Source of the DNA: Pyrinomonadaceae bacterium
GTDB lineage: Bacteria; Acidobacteriota; Blastocatellia; Pyrinomonadales; Pyrinomonadaceae
NCBI GenBank assembly: GCA_021228405.1
Contig: JAJQRF010000002.1
Coordinates: 868,001 to 932,000 of the forward strand
Reading direction: 5' to 3'
Length of the DNA stretch: 64,000 nt
Positions within the stretch are counted from its first letter, which is position 1, and every line of letters starts with the position of its first letter. Made by a program: the position numbers and the translations under genes. The notes beneath the pieces are model-generated. The model saw nothing but the letters and a program-made list of their open reading frames with translations. It was not told the origin of the DNA and made no database searches. Positions 59,001 through 63,075 of this stretch are shown here, one piece after another.

Positions 59001-59108
59001 GCCCACGAAATACACGAAAGAAACGAAAAAAAGAAAGAAGAAAAGAATATTAGATAGTTTTTATATTATTTTTGTATTTCTTTCGTGATTTTCGTGTATT
59101 TCGTGGGC
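59001..59108. repeat. Palindrome D12, arms shared with D8
   Basis: GCCCACGAAATACACGAAAGAAACG left arm mirrors a TTTCGTGATTTTCGTGTATTTCGTGGGC right arm (ends 59108), with an AT-rich centre. Same outer arms as at 34971-35059. Confidence 0.85.
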
Positions 59109-59129
59109 AAAAAAATAAGGAGAAAAAAT

Positions 59130-59822
59130 ATGTCGAAATACACAATGCAGAGTTTTTTACAACAGACGGCGCAGAACGATAATGCGCGGGAATTTTTTGA
59201 GCTTGAAAATCCGTATCTTTTGGAAGTAAACCTGAACGGTCGCGTGTGGGCAAAACTCGGTTCGATGATCGGTTACACGGGCAATGTCAAATTCGAGCGC
59301 GAAGGCGTTTTAGAAGGCGGACTCGGAAAATTTCTGAAAAAAGCCGTGTCGGGCGAATCAACGCCGATGATGAAAGCCGAAGGACAAGGGCGCGTTTATT
59401 TTGCCGAAAACGGCAAAAAAGTCCGCATTATTTATCTGCAAAACGAAATGTTCTACGTCAACGGCAACAACATTCTCGCCTTTGAAGATGCGATCCAATG
59501 GGACATCAAAATGATGCGTCGCGTCGCGGGAATGGCGGCGGGCGGACTTTTCAATATGCAGTTGGGCGGAACGGGAATGGTCGCCATCACGACGCATTTC
59601 GACCCGATCACGCTCGTCGTCCAACCCGGTCAGCCCGTTTACACAGACCCGAACGCGACCGTCGCGTGGTCGGGCAATCTCACGCCTTCGATCAAGACCG
59701 ACATTTCCCTGAAAACCCTTTTCGGACGCGGTAGTGGCGAATCCTTCCAGCTTGCTTTTGAAGGGCAAGGTTGGGTAGTTTTACAGCCATACGAAGAAGT
59801 TTATTACGCACAGGCAGGCTAA
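59130..59822 (+). CDS. AIM24 family protein
   Basis: 230 residues from the ATG at 59130, which has AAGGAG 6-11 bases before it; upstream frame codons belong to palindrome D12. Core blocks: [62 protein letters not shown] and [19 protein letters not shown]24/TRAP-like bacterial proteins have no firmly known function; the eukaryotic homologue is mitochondrial. Follows selA at 136 bp. Confidence 0.9.
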
Positions 59823-59824
59823 AA

Positions 59825-59960
59825 GATTGGAGTGCAAGCATCATTGCTTGCAAACGGCGCGAATGCGTCGTAATTAAGTTCGGATTTTCAGAAGTTTCAT
59901 TGCCAAACGCTTTTTCGCGTTAAAAAGCCCCAATGCAAGCAAGATGCTTGCGCTCCAGTC
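59825..59960. repeat. Palindrome D16
   Basis: GATTGGAGTGCAAGCATCATTGCTTGCA (from 59825) mirrors TGCAAGCAAGATGCTTGCGCTCCAGTC (to 59960), 80-bp centre. Each arm is itself a hairpin of AAGCA words. Confidence 0.85.
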
Positions 59961-59987
59961 TTTTTTTGAATTCTTGGCAGTATTTTG

Positions 59988-60047
59988 CGATTGCGCTCGT
60001 TTATTTGAAATAATCACGCAGTTTTGTGAAATAAACGAGTGCAATCG
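59988..60047. repeat. Palindrome D17
   Basis: CGATTGCGCTCGTTTATTT (59988-60006) mirrors AAATAAACGAGTGCAATCG (60029-60047), one mismatch. Confidence 0.85.
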
Positions 60048-60071
60048 TTGAATATTCATCCAAATTTTCGG

Positions 60072-60253
60072 ATTTCATACTAAATCCTGAATTTTCATAC
60101 TAAATTGTGGATTTTCATACTAAATCCTGAATTTCCATACTAAATCCTGAATTTCCACCATATAATCCTCATATTTCACGCCAAATTGTCATATTCCGCT
60201 CTAAATTGTCATATTTCACGCTAAATTGACGATTTTCATTTCAAATTGGCGGT
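60072..60253. repeat. Array of nine degenerate 20-bp units
   Basis: Nine units, consensus TTTTCATACTAAATCCTGAA drifting to TTTCACGCTAAATTGTCATA; all 20 bp except one of 22. No open frame. Part of the 709-bp spacer 59823-60531, which holds two palindromes, this array and the 39-bp repeats but no gene. Confidence 0.9.
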
Positions 60254-60335: not shown

Positions 60336-60452
60336 TTATGCCGAATCATTCTGTATAATACACAAATACGAGTATTAAACCGAATCAATCCATGTAACAT
60401 CCTAAAAAGAGTGTTATGCCGAATGGTTCGGCATAATCATAACTTATATGCT
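60336..60452. repeat. Three 39-bp repeats, each with an imperfect palindrome
   Basis: Units 60336-60374, 60375-60413 and 60414-60452 share TTAT/AGCCGAATC at the start. Each holds a ~23-bp dyad; in the third it is perfect (TTATGCCGAATGGTTCGGCATAA). They lie 80-196 bp upstream of the cassette-like gene and could be operators. Confidence 0.7.
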
Positions 60453-60531
60453 TCGTGTGAAATATGAGCGACTCAATTATTGAAACAAAATACAAAATGT
60501 TTTTCGATGCCGCCTGTTTAAGGAGAACAAT

Positions 60532-61581
60532 ATGAACTTGAAAATTACTTTGCGTCAGAATTCAACAAAATCATTTCTTTGGTTGCTTACAGTTTTATCA
60601 ACAGCACTCGCAACTTACGCTCAACCGGGTTGTGATCCGGCATTCATAAATGCACTTCGTGACTTTGGTTATGAAACAGAGGCAAATGATGTCGCACTTA
60701 CGATAATGAAAAATGTTTGTTCTGGAAGTTCACGAAGTGGCGGTTTTAATTACGTGAAAGATACAACGAAAATCGGTGGAAGTGCTAAATCAGTAGAACA
60801 AGCCTGCACTACGAAAGATTATCAATTCTTTGAAACGTATCGAAAAGAATTGATGTATTCAAGGCTACCTCAAGGAGTTCTACAAGGAATTGCTAATTGT
60901 TTTGGCGAAAGTGTTTATTTTACGGCAACAACAAATGATGACAACATCGAATTGCGTGCAGGACATAGACCGATAGGAATGCCGCCTGCAAAAATTAGAA
61001 ACTTCACATGGGAACCCAAAAATGCAATGACCTGTAGCGGTCAAGAGTGGAAACCCGGATTTCAACTTAAAATAAATGGCGATGTTCTGATTTGTCGAAG
61101 AACCCGAAATGTGGCGTTAAGTATTGCTATGAATTTAACAGGAACTGGAGGCGGAAAAACTTTATCTTTTACTACTAAACCGGTTTTTGAGAGGGTTTCA
61201 TGGTCAATTGTTCAGTCTCCTAATGGAAATAACTTTAAATGCGTCAATCAATTTGGCGAAGCTGATAAAAATTGGGTGCCTTTAGATAGGCGACTTCTAA
61301 TGCAACATGCAACTGGAACTTGCTACACCCGTTATGGACATTCAACGGTTCATTACGGCGACAATAAAAGAACATATATTCGGGAAACTTGGAAAGGGGA
61401 GGCTCGGTGGAGAGGAAAACCCTATGTTATATGCGTTCTTGACGGGCGAGATTATGGAGATATATGGAGTGTTAAGGTTCAAGGAGGTCGAAGCCGCCCT
61501 GATTTGTGGGACGATATTTGTGCATCTTTATACCGACCAATTCAGGACGTTGATAAAAAAGCAAATTTCCCACAAGATTAA
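60532..61581 (+). CDS. Secreted protein of unknown family, probable integron-cassette gene
   Basis: 349 residues. AAGGAG 8-13 bases before the ATG. Signal peptide 1-30 (ends ATYAQ). The mature part has several Cys (at least seven) that may form disulfides, for example PGCDPAFIN, EQACTTKDY and ATGTCYTRYG. No family recognised. Base composition is clearly more AT rich than its neighbours and codons such as AGA, GTT and TTA are more frequent, which suggests foreign origin. An attC-like site starts 74 bp after the stop codon, so this could be the cargo of a captured gene cassette. Confidence 0.75.
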   Translation: MNLKITLRQNSTKSFLWLLTVLSTALATYAQPGCDPAFINALRDFGYETEANDVALTIMKNVCSGSSRSGGFNYVKDTTKIGGSAKSVEQACTTKDYQFFETYRKELMYSRLPQGVLQGIANCFGESVYFTATTNDDNIELRAGHRPIGMPPAKIRNFTWEPKNAMTCSGQEWKPGFQLKINGDVLICRRTRNVALSIAMNLTGTGGGKTLSFTTKPVFERVSWSIVQSPNGNNFKCVNQFGEADKNWVPLDRRLLMQHATGTCYTRYGHSTVHYGDNKRTYIRETWKGEARWRGKPYVICVLDGRDYGDIWSVKVQGGRSRPDLWDDICASLYRPIQDVDKKANFPQD

Positions 61582-61654
61582 ATTTTATAGTTCAATCAAC
61601 ATCTGACTTAGCTACCGTCAGTTCGGGATAATAAAAAGGTCTTTTTCAAGACGC

Positions 61655-61768
61655 ATATAACAAATCAATGGACGTGAGGGCGAAACAGCGACTTTCTTAT
61701 CAACGGCTTTTCTTAAACTCGGAGTTGTGTGGTGGCGGTTTCGCCCCACGTCATCTCAATCGTTAGCC
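61655..61768 (+). mobile_element. attC-like recombination site (integron cassette)
   Basis: Left end ATATAAC-AAATCAATGGACGTGAGGG; right end TTTCGCCCCACGTCATCTCAATC-GTTAGCC. The two ends are reverse complementary with offset unpaired bases in the TGGACGTGAGGGCGAAAC / GTTTCGCCCCACGTCA arms, and the outer boxes match RYYYAAC and GTTRRRY loosely (one deviation in each). 114 bp, with a ~60-bp variable centre. This is the structure of an attC site, akin to Vibrio repeats. The GTTAGCC box covers the serC stop codon. No integron integrase is in the window. Confidence 0.7.
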
Positions 61769-62845
61769 ATTTTTATTTGTAAAATCGCGCATAAATTCTA
61801 CTAGTGCTTCGCAGCCTTCTTTCGGGAAAGCGTTGTAGATCGAAGCGCGGATGCCGCCGACGCTGCGGTGTCCTTTTAAGCCGTCGAAGCCGTTGGCGGT
61901 CGCTTCGGTGACGAATTGTTTTTCTAAATCTTCGCTCGGCAGACGGAATGTGACGTTCATCAGGCTTCGTGCTTGTTTTTCGGCGTGTCCGCTGTAAAAT
62001 CCGTCGCTCGAATCGATCGCATCATAGAGAATTTTCGCTTTTTCTTCGTTTATTTTTTGCATCGCCTTCACGCCGCCTTTGTTTTTCAGCCATTCGCAGA
62101 CGAGGCTTACGAGATAAATTCCCCAGGTGTTCGGCGTGTTGAGCATCGAATCGTTTTTCGCAATGGCGCGGTAATCGAGCATTGCAAATTGATTTGAGGG
62201 AACTTTTTCGAGCATATCGTCGCGGATAATGACGAGCGTCACGCCCGAAGGTCCGATATTTTTCTGTGCTCCGGCGTAGATGAGCGCGTATTTGTCGAAA
62301 TCGAGCGGTTTGGAAAGAATGTTCGACGAGGCATCGCAGACGACGGGAATGCCTTTGCCGTCGAGTTCGTATTTGAACTCAACGCCGTCGATCGTTTCGT
62401 TTGAACAATAGTGTATGTAATCTGCCGTTTGACTGAAATTAAGTTCGTCCTGTTCGGGAACGGATTTGTAATTTGTTTCTTTCGTAGAAAAAATGACGTT
62501 CACTTTGCCGCATTTTTTCGCTTCCCTGACGGCTTTTTCGCCCCATGCTCCCGTCACGATGTAATCCGCCGAATTTTTTAAGAAATTGATCGGAATCATC
62601 GAAAACTGCAAGCTTGCGCCGCCTTGCAGGAAAAGAATTCGGAAATTTTCGGGGACGCTCAAAAGCTCGCGGATACCGTTTTCGGCGGAATGCAGGATCG
62701 GTGCGAAATGTTGCGAACGGTGGCTGATCTCCATCACGCTCATTCCGATACCGTTCAGGGAAAGCATTTCGCTTTGGGCTTTTTCCAAAACTTCGGTCGG
62801 CAGAATCGCCGGACCTGCGCTGAAATTATAGATTCTTTTCGTCAT
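61763..62845 (-). CDS. serC: Phosphoserine aminotransferase
   Basis: PLP enzyme of serine synthesis (3-phosphohydroxypyruvate to phosphoserine). 360 residues from the ATG at 62843-62845. Opening RIYNFSAGPAILPTEVLEKA, the EISHRS block, LFLQGGASLQFSMIP and the PLP Lys in YAGAQKNIGPSG are all present; ends with the family's C-terminal FMRDFTNKNG. The last codon and stop lie in the GTTAGCC end of the attC-like site. serA is not in the window. Confidence 0.95.
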   Translation of the reverse strand: MTKRIYNFSAGPAILPTEVLEKAQSEMLSLNGIGMSVMEISHRSQHFAPILHSAENGIRELLSVPENFRILFLQGGASLQFSMIPINFLKNSADYIVTGAWGEKAVREAKKCGKVNVIFSTKETNYKSVPEQDELNFSQTADYIHYCSNETIDGVEFKYELDGKGIPVVCDASSNILSKPLDFDKYALIYAGAQKNIGPSGVTLVIIRDDMLEKVPSNQFAMLDYRAIAKNDSMLNTPNTWGIYLVSLVCEWLKNKGGVKAMQKINEEKAKILYDAIDSSDGFYSGHAEKQARSLMNVTFRLPSEDLEKQFVTEATANGFDGLKGHRSVGGIRASIYNAFPKEGCEALVEFMRDFTNKNG

Positions 62846-63075
62846 CGAATTTTTTAGTGAAACCTGCAAAAAAATTACAATAGCACAGAGCGGTTTAATG
62901 TTGAATTTCGCAATTCCGACTTATTTTTCGATTTCTGCGGATTGGGCGGCGGTTACGTTTCAAAATTCACATAAAAGTGAGTTAAAATACACAATATCTG
63001 TCAAACTCTTTTTTTGAAGATGGCATCTTAGAAAAGCGTTTCCCGAATTTAATGGACACAATTTGGAGGATTTCA

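Follow-up and report, generated by a model that had tools for sequence, protein, structure and literature searches.

The stretch of DNA analyzed here (the window, 64,000 nucleotides from a Pyrinomonadaceae bacterium) carries a single integron gene cassette of 1,319 bp (60444-61762, + strand) between two chromosomal genes. The left neighbor is an AIM24-family gene on the + strand (59085-59822, open frame as listed; Pfam PF01987, E = 1.2e-40), and the right neighbor is a class V aminotransferase gene on the - strand (61763-62869; Pfam PF00266, E = 9e-48) that we take, from synteny and general knowledge, to be serC. The cassette contains one open reading frame of 349 amino acids (60532-61581, + strand) and ends in an attC site (61655-61768, + strand), and it is preceded by an attI-type site (60336-60443, + strand). 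The DNA between the AIM24 gene and the attI-type site is rich in repeats, with two inverted-repeat elements that resemble dispersed repeats right after the AIM24 gene (59821-59964 and 59981-60054) and period-20 tandem repeats (TTTCATACTAAATCCTGAAT) at 60060-60246; similar-looking DNA occurs at positions 60-170 of another locus of the data set (L001).

Read from left to right, the attC site consists of an R'' box ATATAAC (61655-61661), a 6-nt spacer, an L'' box AT-[G]-GACGTG (61668-61676) with an extrahelical G at 61670, an extrahelical A at 61677 between L'' and the stem, a 9-bp stem (61678-61686 paired with 61738-61746; arms GGGCGAAAC and GTTTCGCCC) that encloses a variable loop, an 8-bp L' box CACGTCAT (61747-61754), a 7-nt spacer, and an R' box GTTAGCC (61762-61768), the last six bases of which (61763-61768) are part of the target into which the cassette was inserted and contain the stop codon of serC. 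The layout features expected of an attC are present, namely the AAC and GTT of the R'' and R' boxes, pairing L boxes, and spacers of 6 and 7 nt. Both extrahelical bases lie on one half of the site, which gives it strand polarity, and the geometry is that of the class 1 plasmid attCs used as controls, with extrahelical bases at the same places; the first of these bases is a C on the bottom strand in the window site and a G in class 1 sites. A geometry-only finder, which recovers the known class 1 attCs from plasmids, places 61655-61768 first in the window, and neither its score nor its strict geometry was reached by any of 300 simulated sequences of 64 kb. DNA folding yields z scores of -2.8 (+ strand) and -2.35 (- strand). 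A covariance model built from 20 attCs of integron arrays in Pyrinomonadaceae relatives, with the window excluded, scores the site at 117 bits (E = 1.1e-32), and the second and last significant match in the window is the mirror of the same site on the - strand. The stem pairs of this model covary among the relatives, and the window site aligns over its full length with the attCs of arrays that adjoin intI; a scan at Rfam gathering thresholds gave no match. Its position between a + strand reading frame and the - strand serC gene is also where a hairpin terminator of convergent genes could lie, but this reading, or one of mere chance, is practically negligible and can be set aside in view of the 117-bit family match, a terminator scan that calls nothing terminator-like there, and the simulations. 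Judged by layout and family match, 61655-61768 is an attC site.

At least one attC of this type is found by the covariance model in 64 of 118 family genomes, and in the 5.7-Mb genome to which the window belongs the same whole-genome search returns the window site as its only match. A strongly conserved attC type of about 112 bp, its loop included, is common to genera of the family (seen at six loci).

The ends of the cassette were placed by a rule taken from the relatives' arrays, in which the two ends of a cassette are complementary. Among 24 pairs of detected sites that follow one another, 18 show this complementarity over 9 to 12 nt, and the remaining six, with 3 nt only, are read as having a missed attC in between. 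The rule predicts TTATATGC as the left end in the window, and this sequence, complementary to the extended R'' box, is present at 60444, where it abuts the attI crossover 88 nt before the start of the reading frame; on the right, the cassette ends with the G of R'. We also considered a shorter cassette without the reading frame (61427-61762, 336 bp), since GTTATATGCGT at 61426 is exactly complementary over 11 nt to the extended R'' box and shows the expected G, a match with a chance of about 4e-4 (rough estimate by hand). This left edge is very improbable and was rejected, as neither an attI nor an attC lies in front of it, it would split an intact reading frame, it carries a G where the left ends of the relatives' cassettes have T or C, and the competing edge at 60444 abuts the attI. 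The match belongs to an inverted pair, 61426-61442 and 61645-61661, between the reading frame and the DNA before R'', which matches exactly over 11 nt and over about 17 nt if one gap is allowed.

The cassette reading frame is AT-rich and codes for a hydrophobic N terminus that, by eye, ends in ATYA-Q, so that the product is probably a secreted ORFan. A family profile search gave no match above cut-off; weak hits to DUF6006 (E = 0.05) and to the lectin family OAA (E = 0.008) were rejected as far under their own cut-offs. Relatives were found neither in 119 family genomes nor among GTDB species genomes, viral contigs, plasmids, and phages, and a single-sequence AlphaFold model (pLDDT 35) was discarded. 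A first-pass annotation made from the letters alone had proposed an attC-like site following an AT-rich gene of deviant composition and no known family, in the manner of cassette cargo in an acidobacterial-type chromosome. Its layout and coordinates for the site proved exact, the gene exists without a convincing family or relatives, and the cassette carries the attC type of Pyrinomonadaceae arrays. The nearest relative of serC lies in a named Pyrinomonadaceae MAG, from which we take Pyrinomonadaceae (Acidobacteriota) as the host family.

Directly before the cassette start we observe three copies of a 23-bp palindrome (60336-60358, 60375-60397, and 60414-60436) at 39-nt spacing, followed by a crossover point between 60443 and 60444. 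In a BLAST search against all loci of the data set, the DNA left of 60444 matches the DNA directly before cassettes at attC loci of the closest relative, G030 (E = 7e-23, 7e-11, and 7e-11), with weak matches also to DNA upstream of intI genes. The aligned copies share the 23-bp palindromes with a spacing of about 39 nt, followed by ATAATCA..AG|TT, at which the cassette starts; the window differs in having a C in place of the G (ATAATCATAA[G>C]|TT). In five relatives (G060, G036, G109, G104, and G023), the palindrome element separates intI from the first cassette, which is the position of attI. A model (R3) built from these five intI-adjacent attIs only, with the window excluded, finds 60350-60452 in the window (48.9 bits, E = 6.4e-9) and also recovers the G030 copies, and the palindrome arms covary among copies. 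By position and sequence, the element left of the cassette is the attI-type site of the family. Palindromes at fixed spacing can be operators, and attI function is here a prediction, so that the element might instead be a promoter, an operator, or a small mobile repeat carried along with cassettes; we regard this as unlikely, given that it ends exactly at the crossover before cassettes, is flanked by intI and the first cassette in five intact integrons, and has attC downstream of it in one orientation. It may have a promoter role in addition.

The DNA found left of the cassette changes how the locus is to be classified. The first-pass annotation had seen no integrase and suggested a lone attC capture of the SALIN type; the single attC and the lack of a nearby intI stand, but entry at an arbitrary place is not supported, since the cassette occupies an attI docking site that has no intI beside it. 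An IntI similarity search near the attI in the window detects neither an integrase nor an intI remnant to its left, so that, relative to a complete integron (intI, attI, and cassette with attC), the intI is missing locally; the IntI-like gene closest to it belongs to another contig, C4. The absence of an integrase thus does not extend to the whole genome: the genome-wide search for intI and further attCs that had been suggested yields no second attC and one divergent IntI-like protein of 308 amino acids (L001:1471-2397), which has the IntI-type insertion region and scores below the family cut-off. It groups with proteins of G029, G030, and G032 (100/100 support), and in all four proteins of this clade a Gln replaces the His of the catalytic HxxR motif (giving QxxR), with open frames intact. 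Neither attC nor attI was found near this gene or near the relatives' copies, and the clade has possibly been repurposed. At a completeness of about 96%, the assembly could lack a canonical intI that the organism has.

A comparison with relatives lacking the cassette, also put forward at the outset, is provided by G032, which shows that the insertion is not present in all relatives. In this genome the syntenic AIM24 and serC genes (90% and 85% identical, respectively) are about 50 bp apart, with neither cassette nor attC between them. In the window, the TTA within R' comes from the stop codon of serC, and the insertion thus left serC intact. The cassette at the AIM24-serC locus is known from one strain. 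In G030, the corresponding contig (C162) ends two bases past the serC stop codon, at an R'-box-like CTAACG, possibly because the assembly broke at an attC in that genome as well; a continuation of this contig was not found among the attC loci of G030.

In the host order/family set, 35 of the 119 genomes encode an integron integrase that passes the curated cut-off. As to the attI-type site, a broader model (R2, with the window included in its training) has matches in 34 of 118 family genomes, often with more than one copy per genome, spread over separate contigs. We examined 48 copies from 19 genomes, not counting the window's own. The G|TT crossover, changed to C|TT in the window, is retained in all but one of them. 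An attC follows downstream on the same strand in 33 of the 48 and lies upstream in two, while opposite-strand attCs are nearby in one case on the right and in two on the left; most copies without a following attC reach a contig edge within about 1.1 kb. By hand count, 33 copies have a left flank of at least 2.4 kb with no IntI similarity, in relatives that are mostly MAGs in many contigs, where breaks at repeats can detach intI. Truncated intI fragments adjoin two copies (G036:C577 and G034:C60), which appear to be integrons caught while losing their integrase. In G023 (C487) and G024 (C140), an intI-less attI directly adjoins the same gene (proteins 88% identical), and to the right of this orthologous copy lie unrelated DNA and different cassettes. 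Furthermore, one cassette gene is common to the intI array of G023 and to intI-less loci of G024, G030, and G109. Within the open literature (subscription papers being outside its scope), we found no description of dispersed attI sites in Pyrinomonadaceae.

From these comparisons of sequence and position, we consider it likely that the locus is an integrase-less attI platform that was filled once by IntI acting in trans and is now probably frozen. A circular cassette would have been inserted by integron-integrase recombination between the folded bottom strand of its attC and the attI. The integrase presumably came from another source within the cell or was that of an ancestor, given that several attI sites without intI occur in relatives that have one or a few intI genes. 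By now the insertion is probably fixed in place, since the crossover has C instead of G and the genome's own IntI-like protein is divergent, with Gln for the catalytic His; together, the crossover change and the QxxR protein suggest that it is frozen. The dispersed attI copies fit capture in trans, although they do not prove it, and one integrase may serve several capture sites.

Two other origins were weighed against capture at a platform. The locus could be the relic of a complete integron whose intI, left of the attI, was deleted locally, with neither dispersal of attI nor action in trans. CALIN elements have been proposed to arise by loss of intI (PMC8618304), and the truncated intI genes beside attI in G036 and G034 look like such losses under way. 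We think this origin rather unlikely: no intI remnant is found left of the window attI, the intI-less copies with long left flanks would need many independent clean losses, and at the G032 locus the whole insertion is missing. The other origin, an off-target insertion of a single cassette (SALIN, attG type) into ordinary chromosomal DNA at the stop codon of serC, would agree with the single attC, the lack of a nearby intI, and the right junction in serC, and such insertions are already known (Loot et al. 2024, as cited in PMC11023631). It is disfavored and quite improbable, since the left junction is an attI-type site rather than an ordinary one and the same order of attI and then attC is seen again in the relatives, at 33 of the 48 copies.

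Capture at an integrase-less attI platform has partial counterparts in known systems. CALIN and single-attC elements are defined as attC sites without an integron-integrase (IntegronFinder 2.0, PMC9024848), and they share with the window locus an attC and a cassette with no intI nearby; unlike them, the window locus is headed by an attI-type site, and the family has many loci of this kind. IntegronFinder 2.0 does not detect attI outside class 1 (PMC9024848), which is why standard software would file the window locus as CALIN. In a Shewanella prophage, an attI likewise heads an integrase-less array, with intI elsewhere in the same element (PMC9892861), but there it is one extra copy of a short attI in one prophage, whereas here a palindromic attI is present in many chromosomal copies across several genera. 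Insertions at attG sites, as cited in PMC11023631 and PMC12901181 from Loot et al. 2024, also place cassettes outside the main integron; going by those citations, the target is a non-classical site, in contrast to the conserved attI-type site of the window. Chromosomal integrons have lineage-specific attC types, and an attC model for Acidobacteria is listed (PMC8352920). In line with this, the window attC type is common to the host family and present in intI-bearing arrays, whereas its own genome has a single cassette and no canonical intI.

Integrase-less attC loci are usually taken as decayed integrons or off-target insertions. Here, an attI outside class 1 is defined by sequence and occurs in many copies, mostly away from intI and correctly oriented to cassettes, with different cassettes at one orthologous copy in the sister genomes G023 and G024. 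The origin of CALIN elements, and the question of whether one integrase can serve many docking sites, thereby become directly testable. Tentatively, and with slightly less than even confidence, we propose that Pyrinomonadaceae have multi-port integrons, in which many live chromosomal attI sites would be served in trans by one integrase, the port in the window being a frozen one. If this is true, the CALIN-like loci of Pyrinomonadaceae would be working outposts, not debris.
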